A DNA stretch of 35,001 nucleotides, taken from Acidobacteriota bacterium (GTDB lineage: Bacteria > Acidobacteriota > Terriglobia > Bryobacterales > Bryobacteraceae). Under the pieces are notes generated by a model that saw only the letters and a list, made by a program, of their open reading frames with translations, had not been told where the DNA came from and did no database searches. Numbering within the stretch: the stretch's first letter is position 1; each line of letters starts with the position of its first letter. The stretch is from positions 1-35,001 of the forward strand of contig JACQDF010000109.1 in NCBI GenBank assembly GCA_016201205.1. Reading direction: 5' to 3'. Positions 1 through 29,567 of the stretch are shown here, in pieces. Both the position numbers and the translations under genes were made by a program.

Positions 1-407
1 ATCGATATCGCTCACCCGCCTGTCGCCGTTTCCCAACCCGTTGGCCCATTGCCTCTGGCACATTCAACATCGCCATCGGTTTCTACGTTTTTCAACTCTC
101 GCCAGCCCCATCCCCGCCTTACCCACCTCCGCGGCCCCCCCCAGTGTCTGAATCGCAGGTCACAAAAGCGAAGAATATTGACATTCTAATCCTGTGCCGT
201 TATTATTTATGCGACCGAAATTCTTGATGGATTTTTGCACAACAATTGCGTGCAGCAGTCGGGAGAATGGGTCGAAGTGTCTGACAAGAAGAAACCGTGT
301 CACTGAGTGACGTTCGGACTGATAGCTTTATCAGTCATTGCCGGATTCCTGACCTGGGTTCTCAAAGGTTGAGTCCGCCAAACTGAAGCCTCGGGAGGGG
401 CGAGCTT
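1..407. other. Gene-poor upstream region and long leader
   Basis: No convincing gene is seen here. The first 150 bases are C-rich and open in all three plus frames, so an open frame there carries little weight; frame 3 could be the tail of a truncated protein but has no recognisable motif. Bases 155-240 are much more AT-rich and hold the promoter at 178-206. Between that promoter and the gene at 408 lies about 195 nt of leader. In the leader, one plus frame reads a short polar stretch (GTG 250, or TTG 235) ending in TGA at 304-306, then directly GTG 307 followed by a hydrophobic 21-residue peptide (VTFGLIALSVIAGFLTWVLKG) ending at 370-372. It looks like a small membrane protein cut by a stop, but it lacks a good ribosome binding site. 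Confidence 0.4.
178..206 (+). promoter_or_regulatory. Near-consensus sigma70 promoter
   Basis: A perfect -35 hexamer TTGACA (178-183) is followed after exactly 17 bases by TATTAT (201-206), one mismatch from the TATAAT consensus. It sits in a local AT-rich patch within GC-rich DNA. Transcription would start near 213 and run into the Cys/Trp-repeat gene at 408 and its downstream partner at 1453. Such a close match to the housekeeping consensus is not seen elsewhere in the window. The function is inferred from sequence only. Confidence 0.7.
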
Positions 408-1430
408 ATGGCTTGCAAAGACACCGCCGGCCGCATGAGGGCCCGTTGCGCGCTGTGGGAAGCCACGCAACGCGCTCGATGTGATCAGTGGCGCACGGAC
501 TGGACTCAGCGCTGCGACGCTTGGCACACGGCCTGGACTCAGCGCTGCGCGGCCTGGCACACCGAAAGTCAGCAACGCTGCGATCGCTGGGAACAAGAGT
601 GGACGCAAACGTGTTCCAGTTGGGGGCCGTTCGCCATACTGTGTTTGCTCTGGGCTTGGGTTTCAACGTGGGTCTGCCGGGCGTGGTCATGGGTGACGAC
701 CACGATCTGCGATGTTTGGACCTGGGTATCGAGCACCGTTTGCGATCTATGGACTTGGGTCTCGAACACAATCTGTACGTTATGGGTGCTGGTCACGACC
801 TTCGTCTGCCGCCTGTGGGTATTCGTGGTGGACATCTGGTGCTCCATTTTCTGCGCCATTCGCCGGTTGCTGGCTCCAAACGAGTTCTCGCAGGCCAGAT
901 CGGAGTGTATTTACGGCTGGACGGCGCGTTATCGGATCGACGAGAATTCGGAGGAATGCACCCTACGCGTCACACTTCGTATCCGGCTGGTTGCTGATAC
1001 GGGAGTCAGCGCGACAGATATCGCCACTGTAACGGCGAGGTGGGAACCGGCCATCGAAGCGGCGTGGTCCAACCGTTTCCCGCTCGTGCTGAGTGATGGG
1101 ACCTGCCGCTGCAAGGGCTACACGGTGAGTGTGGATGTGCAGTTCGTGCAAACCGGCGAACATCATGTGGTGACGGTACACAGCGGTTCCGGCCGGGCCG
1201 ATATGGGAAACTGGTACGTCAACAGCACGGGCGGGACGGCGGCGCATGAGAGCGGTCACATGTTCGGGAATTCCGACGAATACGCCGATTCGAATTGCCC
1301 TAACCGCACCGTCACCTCGGATGGGAGCATCGTGCAGAACAGCCAAACGGGCACAGTGAGACCCCGGCATTATCAGGGGTTTGCGGATTGGCTTTCGAAC
1401 CGCACTTGCTGCACCTATTCGGTGGGCTAA
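408..1430 (+). CDS. Cys/Trp hendecad-repeat membrane protein with metzincin-like domain
   Basis: Not a family I recognise by name. Residues 3-150 are built from an 11-residue unit with Cys at position 1 and Trp at position 4. Cys falls at 3, 14, 25, 36, 47, 58, 69, then 79, 90, 101, 112, 123, 134 and 145; Trp follows three residues later in nearly every unit. Units up to residue 73 are polar (typical CDAWHTAWTQR), later ones strongly hydrophobic (typical CDLWTWVSNTI), so the same helical repeat appears to pass from a soluble stalk into the membrane. After a basic stretch (IRRLL, 151-155) comes a domain of about 180 residues with HESGHMFGNSD at 280-290. This fits the metzincin zinc motif HExxHxxGxxH/D with Asp as third ligand, and E281 as catalytic base. 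GSIVQNS further on could replace the Met-turn, but it lacks the Met. A Shine-Dalgarno GGGAGGGG (393-400) supports ATG 408. It is probably co-transcribed with the gene 22 bp downstream. A membrane-tethered zinc protease is inferred; topology and substrate are unknown. Confidence 0.8.
   Translation: MACKDTAGRMRARCALWEATQRARCDQWRTDWTQRCDAWHTAWTQRCAAWHTESQQRCDRWEQEWTQTCSSWGPFAILCLLWAWVSTWVCRAWSWVTTTICDVWTWVSSTVCDLWTWVSNTICTLWVLVTTFVCRLWVFVVDIWCSIFCAIRRLLAPNEFSQARSECIYGWTARYRIDENSEECTLRVTLRIRLVADTGVSATDIATVTARWEPAIEAAWSNRFPLVLSDGTCRCKGYTVSVDVQFVQTGEHHVVTVHSGSGRADMGNWYVNSTGGTAAHESGHMFGNSDEYADSNCPNRTVTSDGSIVQNSQTGTVRPRHYQGFADWLSNRTCCTYSVG
414..854 (+). repeat. 33-nt tandem repeats encoding Cys/Trp hendecads
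   Basis: About thirteen in-frame 33-nt units encode the 11-residue repeat. Neighbouring units are still similar as DNA: 498-530 and 531-563 match at 28 of 33 positions, and 708-740 and 741-773 at about 25 of 33. This points to growth by tandem duplication. One unit is 30 nt long (Cys69 to Cys79), exactly where the repeat changes from polar to hydrophobic. Confidence 0.85.
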
Positions 1431-1452
1431 GTAGCATCAGGAAGGAGAGATT

Positions 1453-1878
1453 ATGCCGGCGCAGGGGATTCAATTCGATCCGGCCAGGCTGCAGGATTTC
1501 GAGCTGACCGTGGAGGTGGGGGACACGTTTTCCGAAGACGGGCTCACGCGCGTGCGTCTGAACGGCGGCGGCCGGCTAGCCGTCGAGCAGCAACGCGAGC
1601 AGGAACGAGGAGGCGAGTTCCACACCGAGGTAGACCGCGACAGCATGGAGCGCCTGCTCCGTTTGGCAGCTCAGTTTGACTGGCAGCGGCGCTTCCCGTC
1701 GCGTCCTGGTTTGCCGGACGAAGCGGTCGTGCAGTGGTCACTCCGCGATCGGCAGGGTGGTACGGCGACCGTAAAGGTTTGGTTGCGCGACGCGGAAAAA
1801 GACCATGTCATGGCTCCGGTGCTCAATGTGCTCCGGCAGGGCGTAGACCGTGCGACTGGGGGCAAGTATTATCTTTAG
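1453..1878 (+). CDS. Small soluble protein, possible protease partner
   Basis: A 141-residue protein without signal peptide or membrane segment; ATG 1453 is supported by AGGAAGGAG just upstream. The layout is an N-terminal beta-rich part with a Gly-rich turn (LNGGGRLAVE), a helix near residues 60-75 (MERLLRLAAQFDW), then PDEAVVQWSLRDRQGGTATV and a C-terminal helix. This order (glycine turn, helix with a Leu-Leu-x-x-Ala pattern, a Pro-Asp-x-x-x-Tyr/Trp strand, final helix) recalls emfourin-type inhibitors encoded beside M4 proteases, but this is a resemblance of layout from memory, not a search result. It follows the metzincin-like gene by 22 bp, so the two are almost certainly one operon; an inhibitor, chaperone or immunity role is only inferred. 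Confidence 0.65.
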   Translation: MPAQGIQFDPARLQDFELTVEVGDTFSEDGLTRVRLNGGGRLAVEQQREQERGGEFHTEVDRDSMERLLRLAAQFDWQRRFPSRPGLPDEAVVQWSLRDRQGGTATVKVWLRDAEKDHVMAPVLNVLRQGVDRATGGKYYL

Positions 1879-1899
1879 AGGAGCGCAGGTTCACTTAAC

Positions 1900-2709
1900 T
1901 TAGGCCGGCGCTTCCCCGCTCCCCGCCGGCGTCCCCTCCTCTAACTCCTCGGGAAACACCGCATATCCTGACGGCGGCGGATATGCCGACTCGAGCCACA
2001 CCAGGCGCTTGCGCAAAAAGCGGCTGGGCAACTGCCGCGGACCGGTTTCGACATCGATGTCACAGCAGATGCCGTGCAGGTACAGGGTGAGCGTGTCGAT
2101 GAGGGAGTGGCGTGCGTATTCGCGAAACGCCTTCGAGTCACGCCGCACGTTGGTGGCGCGGCGGCGAAGCGCTTGCTTGTGGTGCCAGCTCGTTTCATCC
2201 ACTTCGCCGTGCACGTGGCCGCTCAATTCGTCGCCGAGCAAAGCGTGGTACTCGGCGCGCGTATCCGGGCCGAGAGCGCCTTCCGCCAGCGCGGCGATCT
2301 GATGGAAGAAGTGGTAATGGTAGTCCGCGACGTCCATGCCGCGAACAGCAAAAATAAGGGTTTCCCCCTGCTGAGTTCGGAAATGGAGGCAGGTGCTGGC
2401 CTTGTTCTCGGGTGGCTTCTCGAGCGAAATGTACTCGCGGCTTCCCGGCGGCAACGGACCGTGGCGTTTGTCCTTGCCGTTGGCGCGCTCCAGGTAGGGA
2501 ACCAGGATGATGAAGGCCTTGGGCATGGTCTGCACAATCTGCGGGGGGAGCGCCGCGATTGGCTCTTCGAGATACTCTTTTATGTCGTCTTCGGTCAGCG
2601 GAAGGCCGGCAAAGAAATAGGAGAAGGTGTTGGTGATCGGGACCATCTCCGCCCGGAACCGCTCGACGAACTCCGCAACGAGAATGCGGGCGAGATCGGT
2701 CTGTGACAT
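1900..2709 (-). CDS. Conserved-looking protein of unknown function
   Basis: A 269-residue soluble protein with no signal peptide or membrane segment. I do not recognise the family. The N-terminal third is rich in acidic and aromatic residues (FVERFRAEMVPITNTFSYFF), with a proline-rich centre. A central region has many His and Tyr residues (ADYHYHFFHQIA, near 130; HVHGEVDETSWHH, near 165), which could bind metal, but no known motif is visible. The C-terminal tail is Pro/Gly/Glu-rich. It is transcribed away from lpxB. The start ATG at 2709 has no Shine-Dalgarno sequence; instead TACCAT lies 11 nt upstream on the coding strand, inside the palindrome at 2713-2730. Confidence 0.65.
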   Translation of the reverse strand: MSQTDLARILVAEFVERFRAEMVPITNTFSYFFAGLPLTEDDIKEYLEEPIAALPPQIVQTMPKAFIILVPYLERANGKDKRHGPLPPGSREYISLEKPPENKASTCLHFRTQQGETLIFAVRGMDVADYHYHFFHQIAALAEGALGPDTRAEYHALLGDELSGHVHGEVDETSWHHKQALRRRATNVRRDSKAFREYARHSLIDTLTLYLHGICCDIDVETGPRQLPSRFLRKRLVWLESAYPPPSGYAVFPEELEEGTPAGSGEAPA

Positions 2710-2712
2710 CCG

Positions 2713-2730
2713 TTGCTACCATGGTAGCAA
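2713..2730. promoter_or_regulatory. Perfect 18-bp palindrome between divergent genes
   Basis: TTGCTACCATGGTAGCAA is its own reverse complement. It separates the unknown minus-strand gene (ATG 2709) from lpxB. On each strand it contains TACCAT, a possible -10 box, so it could serve as a symmetric two-way promoter core or as an operator for a dimeric regulator. The lpxB ATG at 2721 lies inside it, which is a reason to consider the later GTG 2760 as the true lpxB start. Confidence 0.5.
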
Positions 2731-3938
2731 GCCTCGTCAAACGGGGCGAATCAGACTCAGTGCAACCCCAATCGGTCTTTGTTTCGGCAGGTGAAGCTTC
2801 CGGGGACATGTATGCCGCGGCGCTGGTTTCAGCGTTGCGGGCCGAGTGGCCCCAGACGGAGTGGTTTGGGTGCGCCGGACCCAGGATGCAAGCGACCGGT
2901 GTGCGGGCCGTGGCCGATGCGCGCAGCCTGGCCGTGGTCGGACTGGTGGAAGTAATCTCCCACTTGCCAAGGATTTACGGGCAATACAGGAAGCTGGCGG
3001 CGGCTGTGGAACGGGAACGGCCCCAGGCTGCGATCCTGGCGGATAGTCCGGATTTCCACCTGCCGCTGGCCCGGCGTGTCCATCGGGCCGGGGTCCCGGT
3101 GATCTATCTGGTGGCGCCGCAGGCATGGGCCTGGCGGCAAGGGCGAGTCGAGAAGATGCGCGGGACCGTCGCCAGGCTGCTTTGCCTGTTCCCCTTCGAG
3201 GAGCCGTTTTACCGCGCCCGGGGCATCGAAGCTCGATATATCGGCCACCCCCTGGGGCATATGGTTCGGCCGTCGATGACGAAAGATGACTTCTTTTGCC
3301 AGTACAGGTTGCCGGCTGGCCGGCCGATGGTGGCGTTGTGCCCAGGGAGTCGCCAGGGAGAGATCGCCAGGCACTTGCCCATCCTGAAGCAAGCCGTGAG
3401 GCGGATCAGCGACGAAGTGCCGGCCACTTTTGTCCTGGCTGCCCCCTCCGGGTTCAGCGAGCGTGCCGGCGCTTCATTTTTTCAGGAACGCATTTCCGGC
3501 TCAGCCATCCAAGTGATTGAGGGGAAAACGTGGGATGTCGTGGCCCACGCCGATCTTGCCCTGGCAGCCAGCGGCACGGTAACGATGGAAGCGGCTCTGC
3601 TGGGGACCCCAATGGTTACGTATTACAAAGTGGCTGCATTGAGCTGGCTGCTGGGCCGCTGGATGGTGAAGGCGCCTTTCCTGACCATGGTGAACCTGGT
3701 GGCGGGGAGGCGGCTGGTGCCGGAACTGATGCAGAATGAAATGACAGGAGAGCGGTTGGCGCGTGAGACGGTCGCTTTGCTGAAAGACTCTTCCGCGAGG
3801 GAAAAGATGCGCCGGGATCTTCAGCAGGAAGTCGCCCTAAAGCTCGCCGTCGGCGAAGACCCGATGGAACGGGCGGCGCGCATCGTGAGAGAGTTTTTCG
3901 ATGAGCATTCGAGGAAAGTGGATGGCAACTGCGCTTAA
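2721..3938 (+). CDS. lpxB: Lipid-A-disaccharide synthase
   Basis: LpxB (glycosyltransferase family 19) joins UDP-2,3-diacylglucosamine and lipid X to form the disaccharide core of lipid A at the inner face of the cytoplasmic membrane. The N-terminal signature VFVSAGEASGDMYAAAL, the central LVAPQAWAWRQGRVEKM and IGHPLGHMV, LCPGSRQGEI, and the C-terminal ALAASGTVTMEAALLGTPMV are family hallmarks. Length fits (family about 380-400). ATG 2721 is the conventional start; GTG 2760 gives 392 residues and leaves room for a promoter, and GTG 2703 is also open. None has a good Shine-Dalgarno sequence. It overlaps the start of the next gene, suggesting co-transcription. Its presence shows a lipid A-containing outer membrane. 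No other lpx gene is in view. Confidence 0.95.
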   Translation: MVASLVKRGESDSVQPQSVFVSAGEASGDMYAAALVSALRAEWPQTEWFGCAGPRMQATGVRAVADARSLAVVGLVEVISHLPRIYGQYRKLAAAVERERPQAAILADSPDFHLPLARRVHRAGVPVIYLVAPQAWAWRQGRVEKMRGTVARLLCLFPFEEPFYRARGIEARYIGHPLGHMVRPSMTKDDFFCQYRLPAGRPMVALCPGSRQGEIARHLPILKQAVRRISDEVPATFVLAAPSGFSERAGASFFQERISGSAIQVIEGKTWDVVAHADLALAASGTVTMEAALLGTPMVTYYKVAALSWLLGRWMVKAPFLTMVNLVAGRRLVPELMQNEMTGERLARETVALLKDSSAREKMRRDLQQEVALKLAVGEDPMERAARIVREFFDEHSRKVDGNCA

Positions 3939-7995: not shown

Positions 7996-9186
7996 TCAGC
8001 TTCCGATCCCGGGCGCGTACCACGATTTTTCGGGCGCGTGGTATGACGCCGCCAGCTCGGGGGTCTCGATACGCCTGCCGCTCTGATGCCGTGACTCCAT
8101 CAAGCCAGCCAGCGCACCGCTCACCAGCAGAGTGCGCTCGACCGGATGCGATGGACGGCCCGTTTCGATCATCTGCCGGATGCCGTGCACCAGCATCGAG
8201 AAATTGTTGGAATTCCCGGTGGGGATATAGCAGAGCGTGCTGTCCACTTTTCCCTCCGCCCGGTACGCCACCAGGTACTCATTGACCAGCCCGCCCAGCG
8301 CAAGCACCGCGCCTTTGAATCCGTCGCGGTATTCGATGATCCCCAGAGCGGCGTTCTTCACCTGCTCGGGCTTCCCGGAACCGATCCGCTGGCCGCGCTT
8401 GAGGGCGGCATCGAGCAGGTCGCGCCGCCACAGGCCCTGCGCCGCCGCCTGCCAGACCGCATCGCCAGCCAACATCCCGACTGCCTTCACGCCGGATTCC
8501 GCGCCGCGCCGCCGCTCGACGAACGCCTGCAATGTCTCGAGCACATGGAAGATTCCACCGTCGGCGACCCAGCCTCCTCCCACCGACAGTGCGGATTCCA
8601 TCCGGATCCCTAAGGGCGGATCCAGCGCCGGCCGCCGGAATGTGACCGGAACACTGGACCCCGCCATCAGCGGGAAGGCGAGCTCGCGCGACCAGTCGTA
8701 CATCTGCTTCGCCTTCCTCCAGTCATAAGAGAGATGCTTGTCCACAAATACCGGGCACGCCCGGCCGCTGTGGCGGAATACCCGCACTACCTGCTCAAAG
8801 AATTCGAACCGGGGGTACAACTGCTGCTGCTTCTCGTTGTGCGGATAGTTGCCGTGCTCGCACACCAGGATCACGCCGTCCACCGCGAGATTGCCCGTTC
8901 CCAGCGTGAGCGCCTCGGCAATCGAGCCCGCCAGCCGGACCCCATAGGCGGACGCCAGACGCCGTCCGATGTCAGCCGGATGCAATTGGTCCATCCACAG
9001 CGAGGCCACCTCAAACGGAGGCTCGTAGTACTTGTCGTGGATCCAGTATCCTTCCAGGAACCGTGTGATGAAGTTGTCCGAGTGCGAGCGCACGTGATAG
9101 GTGCTGCTCAAACAGGCGATCTTCTTCTTGCCGGCGGCAGCAGCAGCAGCCGCGGTCAGAGCGTGAACGAACTCGCGACGCCTCAC
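7996..9186 (-). CDS. Exported protein, possibly Gfo/Idh/MocA-like
   Basis: A 396-residue protein with a basic start and a poly-alanine hydrophobic stretch (MRRREFVHALTAAAAAAAG) that resembles a Tat-type leader. After it comes KKKIACLSSTYHVRSHSD, then a region organised like a Rossmann N-domain (VDGVILVCEHGNYPHNEKQQ, PVFVDKHLSYDWRKA, FPLMAGSSVPVTFRRP). VDKHLSYDW stands where Gfo/Idh oxidoreductases have their EKP-like motif. No clear GxGxxG nucleotide motif is seen, so an oxidoreductase activity is uncertain. The C-terminal half has GGGWVADGGIFHVLETLQAFVERR. It overlaps the dipeptidase gene by 4 bp (ATGA) and precedes the lactonase by 3 bp. Metabolism of a carbohydrate or related ligand is inferred from its neighbours only. 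Confidence 0.7.
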   Translation of the reverse strand: MRRREFVHALTAAAAAAAGKKKIACLSSTYHVRSHSDNFITRFLEGYWIHDKYYEPPFEVASLWMDQLHPADIGRRLASAYGVRLAGSIAEALTLGTGNLAVDGVILVCEHGNYPHNEKQQQLYPRFEFFEQVVRVFRHSGRACPVFVDKHLSYDWRKAKQMYDWSRELAFPLMAGSSVPVTFRRPALDPPLGIRMESALSVGGGWVADGGIFHVLETLQAFVERRRGAESGVKAVGMLAGDAVWQAAAQGLWRRDLLDAALKRGQRIGSGKPEQVKNAALGIIEYRDGFKGAVLALGGLVNEYLVAYRAEGKVDSTLCYIPTGNSNNFSMLVHGIRQMIETGRPSHPVERTLLVSGALAGLMESRHQSGRRIETPELAASYHAPEKSWYAPGIGS

Positions 9187-27797: not shown

Positions 27798-29567
27798 ATG
27801 CGCGCGTGGATGCTCGTGACGGCGCTCGGGGCGAGGACGGTGGCGGGGCAGCAGACTTGCCCGCCCACGCCCACATACTCGCCTTGCGAGCTCGTCTTCG
27901 AGCTGAACGAGCAGGAAGCGGCAGCTCATCGGGATCCTTACCAGACGGTGGAGCTTCGCGCGGAGCTGCGGTCGCCGAGGGCGAAGACGATTCTCATGCC
28001 CGGCTATTGGGACGGCGGGCGGCGGCTGGTGATCCGCTTCACTCCGGTGGATCCGGGCGCTTGGGACTTCCGGATCACGAGTAACATCGAGCGCTTCAAC
28101 GGCAAGCAGGGGCAGATGCAGGCGACCGATTCGCCGGACCCGGGGTTCCTCCTGCCGGCGAACGTGCACCACTGGATGGCGAGTGAATCCCGCAAGCCGC
28201 ACCTCTGGATGGGCGATACCTTCCTCGAGTTCGGCACCGCGCCGCAGCAGCAGTTTGACGCTTACGCGGAAGCGCGAGCGAAGCAGAAGTTCACCCACGT
28301 GCGTGGCCTTCTGGTGGCTGGCAAGCTGGCTTTTCCCGGTGGCCGGCCGGAGGCTGCGTATTTTCAGCAGCTCGACAGCCGCATCCTGGCGCTCAACAGG
28401 AAGGGTATGTTCGTGGACCTGGTGGTCGCATCCGGCGGAGGGCAGTTGACGGAGCTGTTTCCGGGCTGGCAGGAGCGCGAGCGGCTGGCGCGCTACATCG
28501 TCTCGCGGTATTCGGCGTTTCACATCACCTGGCAGTTGCTGGGCGAGTTCGAATCGCATGACGGCGGCCGTGCGCTGCTGAAGGAGCTGGGCGTTGTGAT
28601 CCAGAAGCACGATCCCTACCAGCACCCGCGCTCGACGGGGACGCTGGCGTCCTCGGCGGCCGCCTCGCCCGACGGCTGGATGAATTACGTGGTGCATCAT
28701 GCCTTTGACGACACGGTGGGAGCCGTCGAGCACCAGGTCTTTCCCGCTCCGTTCGTCAACACAGGCTTCGCAGCGGAAAGCGCTGCCGGGGCTGATGCGT
28801 TCCGCAAACGGCTGTGGCAGGCGTCGATGAACGGGCAGTATCCGGCGGGCATGCTGGATATACAGAATCTCGACTCGGCGGGCGCCAAAGCTGCGAAAGC
28901 ATGGTACGAGTTTTTCGCGCGCACACGCTACTGGGAACTCGAGCCCTATTTCGACGTGGACGGCGCTCGAGCGCTGGCGCTGCCCGGCGTCGAGTACATC
29001 CTCTACATCGAGAGGCCCGGCCCGGTGGAGATCCTCATCGAGAAGCACACCTACGATGTGTTCTGGATGAATCCCGCGACCGGAGAAACGACGAAGGAGA
29101 AGAAGGATTTCAAAGGCAGCGACCGGTGGACGGGCGAGCCGCCCTCCAAAACACAGGACTGGGTGCTGCACCTGTCGCGTGAAGGGCGCAAAGAAGGCAT
29201 GCTGCGCTCCTATAAATTCGAATCGCGGCCCAACCTGATGCAGGAAATCGAGCAGAACCCGCAGAAAGCGCCCTTCGACATCCTCGAGCCGTCCCGCGAC
29301 GTGCTGTCGCTGAAGACGCCATCGAAGTACCAGGCCAAGCTGCGCCGCGAAACGCGCGGCACGCGCCAGATGATGTATTTGTGGACCGGGGAAGTGCCGA
29401 CCGAAGGCCGCGGATATCGCGTCGTGGGGACAGGCGCCGAAGGCACGCTGAGCATCCCGCCCGACCTGGCCAGGCAGTTTCCCGCTGTCTTCAACTTGCG
29501 AATCTACGCCCTCAACGCGGTGGGAAAGGTGTACGCCGTGGACAAGGTCTACCGGTTGACGGAATGA
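27798..29567 (+). CDS. DUF5060/DUF4038 apiosidase-like glycoside hydrolase
   Basis: A 589-residue probably secreted glycosidase. The start has a weak signal-like stretch (MLVTALGARTVAGQ; ATG 27798, with ATG 27810 also possible). Residues about 28-110 look like the DUF5060 beta domain (PYQTVELRAELRSPRAKTIL, MPGYWDGGRRLVIRFTPVDP). The middle is a TIM-barrel of the DUF4038/apiosidase-like type: RKPHLWMGDTFLEFG, FTHVRGLLVAG, MFVDLVVASGGGQ, FHITWQLLGEFESHD (a candidate Glu), HPRSTG. A beta-rich tail (PGVEYILYIERPGPVEI, YDVFWMNPATGE) resembles the putative collagen-binding domain that follows such barrels, and a further beta domain (about 490-589) ends the protein. It probably removes sugars from plant or bacterial glycans; the linkage is unknown. 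Its stop overlaps the tsaB start (ATGA). Confidence 0.82.
   Translation: MRAWMLVTALGARTVAGQQTCPPTPTYSPCELVFELNEQEAAAHRDPYQTVELRAELRSPRAKTILMPGYWDGGRRLVIRFTPVDPGAWDFRITSNIERFNGKQGQMQATDSPDPGFLLPANVHHWMASESRKPHLWMGDTFLEFGTAPQQQFDAYAEARAKQKFTHVRGLLVAGKLAFPGGRPEAAYFQQLDSRILALNRKGMFVDLVVASGGGQLTELFPGWQERERLARYIVSRYSAFHITWQLLGEFESHDGGRALLKELGVVIQKHDPYQHPRSTGTLASSAAASPDGWMNYVVHHAFDDTVGAVEHQVFPAPFVNTGFAAESAAGADAFRKRLWQASMNGQYPAGMLDIQNLDSAGAKAAKAWYEFFARTRYWELEPYFDVDGARALALPGVEYILYIERPGPVEILIEKHTYDVFWMNPATGETTKEKKDFKGSDRWTGEPPSKTQDWVLHLSREGRKEGMLRSYKFESRPNLMQEIEQNPQKAPFDILEPSRDVLSLKTPSKYQAKLRRETRGTRQMMYLWTGEVPTEGRGYRVVGTGAEGTLSIPPDLARQFPAVFNLRIYALNAVGKVYAVDKVYRLTE

Follow-up and report, generated by a model that had tools for sequence, protein, structure and literature searches.

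A predicted cysteine-ladder hairpin joined to a metzincin-like protease and to other bacterial enzymes

The DNA analyzed here (the window) is a stretch of 35,001 nucleotides from an Acidobacteriota bacterium of the family Bryobacteraceae (assembly GCA_016201205.1, contig JACQDF010000109.1). Close to its start lies an intact gene for a protein of 340 amino acids (aa), which has no signal peptide and in which a module of regularly spaced cysteines precedes a metzincin-like protease domain. It is followed by a gene for a 141-aa protein, here called the partner. Our analysis concerns the N-terminal module, predicted to be a helical hairpin with a ladder of cysteines between its arms, its occurrence on other enzymes, and its possible role at membranes. 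The coordinates of features at this and related loci are collected in Table 1.

The initial annotation, made from the sequence alone, had pointed to cysteines recurring every 11 residues, with tryptophan three residues later in nearly every unit. The fourteen positions it gave, from residue 3 to residue 145, are exact; all steps are of 11 residues except a single 10-residue step between C69 and C79, a further Cys follows at 149, and Trp occupies the +3 position in 12 of the 14 units (the exceptions being C3 and C145). The longest chain with exact 11-residue spacing comprises seven Cys and occurs twice, on either side of the 10-residue step, and 20,000 shuffles of the protein never gave more than five. 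Together with 139 homologues found at an E value of <=1e-3 (120 listed), this rules out a chance or low-complexity repeat. Short 33-bp DNA arrays (2.2 and 2.6 copies) are present, so units do duplicate; a recent DNA repeat alone is ruled out, however, because the pattern is kept at 42 to 84% identity in the other 38 rows of alignment A1 (39 rows, the window protein and its homologues). The ladder Cys are kept in 33 to 39 of these 39 rows, apart from C3 (23 rows, with 13 gaps), and each of 12 Trp examined is kept in 20 to 39, making Cys the better-kept feature.

The C-terminal domain carries the zinc-site pattern of metzincins, HExxHxxGxxH/D, in its Asp version, with H280, E281, H284, G287, and D290 each present in all 39 rows, and its predicted fold is also that of metzincins. 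This conservation supports the earlier proposal of a metzincin-like domain with Asp as the predicted third ligand, and both the 11-residue Cys spacing and HExxH are kept across A1. At the Met-turn, Met is found in 38 of the 39 rows and Val in the window copy alone. The domain differs from snapalysin and from ADAMTS/adamalysin metzincins in this Val and in its fusion to the hairpin, and its matches to them fall below the Pfam and NCBIfam cut-offs. Relatives of the domain also occur in other settings: a Tox-PAAR-like protein (L010, 1420-3204, with a second gene adjoining at 382-1377) ends in one, and giant Streptomyces plasmid proteins (L015 and L016, annotated as EndoU and protein-glutamine glutaminase) hold one internally.

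An AlphaFold2 model of the window protein shows two helices, at residues 3-70 and 73-154, with a break at residues 71-72. In a structure comparison the two helices align to the known helical hairpins 1qu7 and 6rw9 over 151 to 153 residues, while Foldseek alone gave no Protein Data Bank (PDB) match at E <= 0.001, a PDB search by sequence found none, and the PDB profile match of A1 to CMC4 was not significant (E = 2.7). The single helix over residues 3-150 that had been envisaged, a polar stalk running straight into the membrane, is therefore contradicted by the model break and hairpin-like alignment, and also by the covariation of the arms described below. The sole irregular Cys step sits at the center of the chain, and the positions of every mirrored Cys pair sum to 148 (3+145, 14+134, 25+123, 36+112, 47+101, 58+90, and 69+79); mirrored Cys are found in relatives as well. 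Because an even chain is always mirror-symmetric, this symmetry alone is little proof of a hairpin. It gains weight because the turn is marked independently at the same place, by a change from polar to hydrophobic sequence, and because the arms have evolved in step.

In hendecad coiled coils, a repeat of three helical turns keeps one residue on one face. The 11-residue periodicity, with Cys lined up on one face, held up here as first suggested; since each Cys comes back to the same face, two straight helices in register would be stapled about every 16 Å. The present case differs in being a predicted intramolecular antiparallel pair with a Cys in every repeat. We consider it well supported, as a structural prediction, that residues 1-154 form an antiparallel ladder hairpin, and seven interhelical disulfides within it are likely. 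Among the options originally raised, a disulfide ladder thus gains support, while Trp stacking as an essential feature is ruled out by the better conservation of Cys and by a subfamily of 10 counted proteins (turn class C) in which the Cys ladder persists with Trp scarce at +3.

As a second query we used the same module from a phosphoesterase (the N-terminal 145 aa at L011, protein P0121, named Geothrix sp.), which matched 299 proteins, of which 120 were listed. A Cys chain could be counted in 236 of the 240 proteins listed from both searches, and, with the turn set by a motif or by the polar/hydrophobic switch, the number of Cys units was equal in the two arms of 212 of them (pairs from 3+3 to 9+9). 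When arms were re-paired within turn classes, the mean was 114.0 ± 5.6 equal pairs, with a maximum of 139 in 20,000 permutations. Earlier turn rules gave equality in 149 of 233, 199 of 238, 205 of 236, and 207 of 236 proteins, and for the first three, which were also permuted, the observed value exceeded every permutation. These arm counts include an additional N-terminal Cys, 4 to 8 residues ahead of the chain, in 21 proteins, without which equality was 186 of 236 under the rule that had given 205. Odd steps are mirrored too: counted outward from the turn, arm 1 reads 1, 7, 11 and so on and arm 2 reads 4, 7, 11 and so on in one protease subfamily, and another turn class has 8, 11 and so on against 6, 11 and so on. 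A single continuous rod is disfavored by this covariation because it would not require its arms to match in unit number.

Arm lengths were also followed on two trees, one of phosphoesterases (68 rows over 650 aa, FastTree) and one of proteases (110 rows). On the former, the direction of change agreed in all 7 independent pairs at one threshold (sign P = 0.016) and in the only pair at the other; on the latter, same-way changes averaged 2.3 of 5 and 2.9 of 3 pairs, with none opposite, which is not significant. The fewest changes were 16 and 15, and jointly 18, on the protease tree and 13, 16, and 17 on the phosphoesterase tree. Weighing against matched arms are the 24 proteins in which they are unequal. 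Six of these were flagged by rule as cut at the N terminus, and the remaining 18 are real or unexplained exceptions (for example P0142, P0180, P0188, and P0189 at 7+6 and P0236 at 7+5).

Hendecad averages over the equal-arm proteins place the Cys (position 0) and W3 on the shared face of both arms, with an outer face that is polar in arm 1 and hydrophobic in arm 2 (V6, V10, W5, and A/L2). On an interface scale, the sums per 11 residues for arms 1 and 2 were +4.29 and -2.97 in 56 proteases of turn class A, +2.54 and -4.46 in 102 enzymes of class B, +4.70 and -4.27 in 25 proteases of class B, and +2.21 and -0.05 in the 10 Trp-poor proteases of class C. In arm 2 of the window protein, 97% of 19-residue windows favor the nonpolar phase. 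From this difference between the arms we predict, for most members, an amphipathic plank some 100 Å in length (68 residues at 1.5 Å each). It is possible that the hairpin anchors its enzyme on membranes, a reasoned guess that falls a little short of even odds.

The module is portable, being fused to several unrelated enzymes. Homologues of the window protein come from metagenomes and from metagenome-assembled genomes named Euzebyales, Gaiellaceae, Actinomycetota, and Bacteroidales, and the C-terminal part of the protease is encoded on a Dehalococcoidia contig (L001). In the host phylum, 7 of 396 sampled genomes matched A1 at E <= 1e-10 (scoring up to five candidates in each genome), with the hairpin covered in three (G000, G205, and G384); in the phylum of L001, 1 of 400 genomes (G396) matched, in the C-terminal part only. 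Hand counts over the 120 listed hits of the phosphoesterase-hairpin search gave PF04185 (phosphoesterase, phospholipase C-like) on 70, kelch-type domains on 38, subtilase PF00082 on 2, and no domain on 10, and names among these hits included Geothrix, Ilumatobacteraceae, Jatrophihabitans, Burkholderiaceae, and Verrucomicrobiae. NCBIfam matches below cut-off relate P0129 to phosphocholine-specific phospholipase C and, weakly, P0165 to the radical copper oxidase GlxA. The hairpin is N-terminal in most members and C-terminal in the subtilases P0204 and P0234 and in P0183. Other metallopeptidase-like domains were seen joined to ladder hairpins in P0233 (HELGHACNLWH) and P0183 (HEGFH). Another gene with a short Cys ladder occurs in the genome from which the window comes (C239, L012 1201-2094), and its protein carries VHESRHI.

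In the members scanned, the hairpin drew no above-cut-off match from Pfam or NCBIfam models; DUF1218 came nearest, on L012, but stayed below its cut-off (E = 0.027). A PDB search by sequence with the phosphoesterase hairpin gave a single irrelevant match (E = 0.44). A phage gene is rejected, as no phage match was found; a plasmid gene is rejected as well, since all six plasmid hits are confined to the protease domain and a phosphoesterase hairpin had none. One viral-contig hit (L013) covers mainly the protease domain, and in six viral-contig loci the match to P0135 lies in its kelch part and leaves out the hairpin, while P0152 matches none. Among six proteins scanned for anti-phage defense, PADLOC matched only the subtilase domain of P0204. 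No description of the module was found among the best-ranked matches (at most 20 per search) in open-licence PMC papers.

A database search with the partner gave 20 proteins at E <= 1e-3, of which the first is apparently the partner itself, and in L001 too the protease is followed by a homologue. Its AlphaFold2 model is nearest to Mago nashi and weakly near emfourin. PMC9505478 describes a protealysin-emfourin operon in which, as at the window locus, a metalloprotease gene stands beside a small gene, there an inhibitor, and proposes a role in competition. The fold match to emfourin is weak, however, and emfourin identity was not found by sequence, with no Pfam hit to it at E <= 10 among 21 partner-family members; the partner profile likewise had no PDB match by sequence. 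Protealysin also belongs to a different protease clan from the window protease. We regard the partner as a candidate cognate inhibitor of the protease, with the odds evenly balanced.

In two Geothrix-type genomes of one genus (G205 and G384), the ladder enzyme is directly adjoined, in three loci, by a small gene encoding an invariant ACGC motif. Its product has two hydrophobic stretches, judged by eye, and is apparently a membrane protein; ACGC..G and GK..G are invariant in the family. The family profile (A3) found two copies in G205, one in G384, one in G396, and none in G000 at E <= 1. Across the 396 genomes of the host phylum (ten candidates per genome scored), it found only the three copies of G205 and G384 and a weak hit in G265 that contains a stop. 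Because A3 was built from the copies described here, finding them again is uninformative, and the news is that no other credible copy appeared. Neither Pfam nor NCBIfam had an above-cut-off match for the three members scanned, one of which reached E = 0.057 with Phage_holin_3_6, and no PDB chain matched the profile at E <= 10. By analogy with known systems, the ACGC protein might serve as an oxidase of ladder hairpins, which we hold as a tentative suggestion.

Table 1. Features of the window locus and of ACGC genes in related loci
Feature	Location	Strand	Basis or remark
Ladder-hairpin protease gene	window 408..1430	+	ATG open reading frame, 340 aa, intact; 139 homologues
Polar arm, residues 3-70; Cys 3, 14, 25, 36, 47, 58, 69	window 414..617	+	AlphaFold2 helix; polar hendecad averages in relatives
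Hairpin turn, residues 70-78 (SSWGPFAIL between C69 and C79)	window 615..641	+	AlphaFold2 break at 71-72; Cys mirror axis at 74
Trp/Val-rich hydrophobic arm, residues 73-154; Cys 79, 90, 101, 112, 123, 134, 145, and linker Cys 149	window 624..869	+	AlphaFold2 helix; nonpolar phase
Metzincin-like protease domain, residues 155-340; 7 further Cys	window 870..1427	+	
HESGHMFGNSD, residues 280-290, predicted zinc site (HExxHxxGxxD)	window 1245..1277	+	H, E, H, G, and D invariant, 39/39 in A1
DGSIVQN, Met-turn position	window 1320..1340	+	Val309 in window copy
Partner gene, 141 aa, candidate cognate inhibitor	window 1453..1878	+	homologues; synteny in L001; AlphaFold2 model
ACGC gene	L018 9612-9881		kelch enzyme follows from 9883
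ACGC gene	L020 9885-10154		abuts kelch enzyme as in L018
ACGC gene	L019 8580-9020		overlaps phosphoesterase start at 9004
ACGC relative	L001 835-1290		after protease and partner

To account for the observed Cys mirror geometry, arm covariation, enzyme fusions, and gene adjacency, we propose a disulfide-ladder hairpin that holds the protease on a membrane, with the partner as inhibitor and, in relatives, the ACGC protein as oxidase; we give this joint reading a probability of roughly 0.52. Each polar-arm Cys would be bonded to its mirror Cys, forming seven rungs (3-145, 14-134, 25-123, 36-112, 47-101, 58-90, and 69-79), and the greasy face of the rigid ladder would hold the attached protease at the membrane surface. 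The partner, likely cytoplasmic, would restrain the protease ahead of export. In relatives, the small membrane protein encoded beside the ladder enzyme may help to oxidize the ladder, in a role like that of the Mia40 CPC motif toward twin CX9C hairpins.

Alternatively, the hairpin could be a delivery device whose greasy arm enters a neighbor's membrane with a toxic enzyme, the downstream gene encoding an immunity protein. This is improbable, though the strongest of the alternatives: relatives of the protease domain stand behind the Tox-PAAR-like domain and inside the giant Streptomyces EndoU-domain and protein-glutamine glutaminase family proteins, and protease plus partner resembles the protealysin-emfourin operon, with its proposed competition role (PMC9505478). 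However, these toxin-like contexts match the protease domain only, the rest of those proteins not having been searched for a ladder, and the phosphoesterase and kelch loci show the ACGC gene, with no partner-like gene noticed in their lists of open reading frames (no profile search made). Somewhat less probable is a surface-active coat module, like hydrophobins or phasins, that would place enzymes on air-water interfaces, lipid droplets, or hydrophobic particles rather than bilayers. One strongly aromatic face, degradative cargo, and predicted disulfide rigidity would suit such a coat, but the small gene with two hydrophobic stretches abuts a ladder gene in three loci, which indicates a membrane step. 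Pairing of Cys between chains, with parallel helices forming a disulfide-crosslinked homo-oligomeric rod or barrel, is less likely again: constant-face Cys would line a parallel coiled coil too, and the hydrophobic outer face invites association, but neither the equal unit numbers across the turn (212/236) nor the mirrored odd steps are required by it. Finally, one long helix, a polar stalk and then a membrane anchor whose reduced Cys bind metal or heme, is very unlikely. Arm 2 is hydrophobic enough for the membrane phase, and without a signal peptide the Cys could remain reduced in the cytoplasm, but arm 2 spans 82 residues (about 120 Å), far more than one bilayer crossing, and the model break, hairpin-like alignment, and arm covariation speak against such a stalk.

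Among known systems, the disulfide-ladder hairpin most invites comparison with twin CX9C/CHCH proteins (COX17, CMC4, and the CHCHD family). Published work describes nested pairs C7-C38 and C17-C28 in the twin CX9C hairpin of CMC4, oxidation of such hairpins by the CPC motif in the Mia40/CHCHD4 relay (PMC12114033), and membrane anchoring of yeast Mia40. The antiparallel helical hairpin and nested Cys pairs of constant sum are shared, here as a prediction only. Yet here the spacing is CX10C rather than a CX9C pair per helix, with 3 to 9 Cys units per arm against two rungs, one arm is hydrophobic, and the proteins are bacterial and fused to enzymes; a CXC oxidoreductase serves CHCH proteins, whereas here there is only an adjoining ACGC gene, by analogy and not homology. 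The ladder hairpin is comparable in its working to a much-extended CHCH hairpin and is not a CHCH family member. A full bacterial counterpart of the mitochondrial Mia40/CHCH relay, in which a membrane-bound ACGC protein oxidizes portable CX10C ladder hairpins, would be an unlikely extension. The hairpins would then be a new class of amphipathic plank, stapled by up to nine disulfide rungs, that needs no signal peptide to take its cargo (proteases, phospholipase-like esterases, and copper-oxidase-like enzymes) onto and through membranes. Alpha-hairpinins share a helix-loop-helix with a fixed Cys motif but are short antimicrobial peptides with four Cys (PMC11591084 and PMC7191063).

If the proposed hairpin is correct, it is a natural rule-based scaffold, with 11 residues per rung and arms nearly always matched, reused for very different enzymes. 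It would make testable how signal-less, disulfide-rich proteins exit the cell and whether dedicated bacterial CXC-type oxidases exist for helical hairpins, and it would offer protein engineering a ready-made rigid amphipathic plank. To our knowledge, no other single hairpin has as many interhelical disulfides in a row as this ladder would have if real.

Rfam gave no match at the gathering threshold in window positions 1-3000. Beyond the partner, a 269-aa reverse-strand gene (window 1900-2709), for which neither Pfam nor NCBIfam gave a match at E <= 1, adjoins lpxB (2703-3938). Farther along, at window 27798-29567, lies a gene for a DUF5060/apiosidase-like protein with a putative collagen-binding domain.
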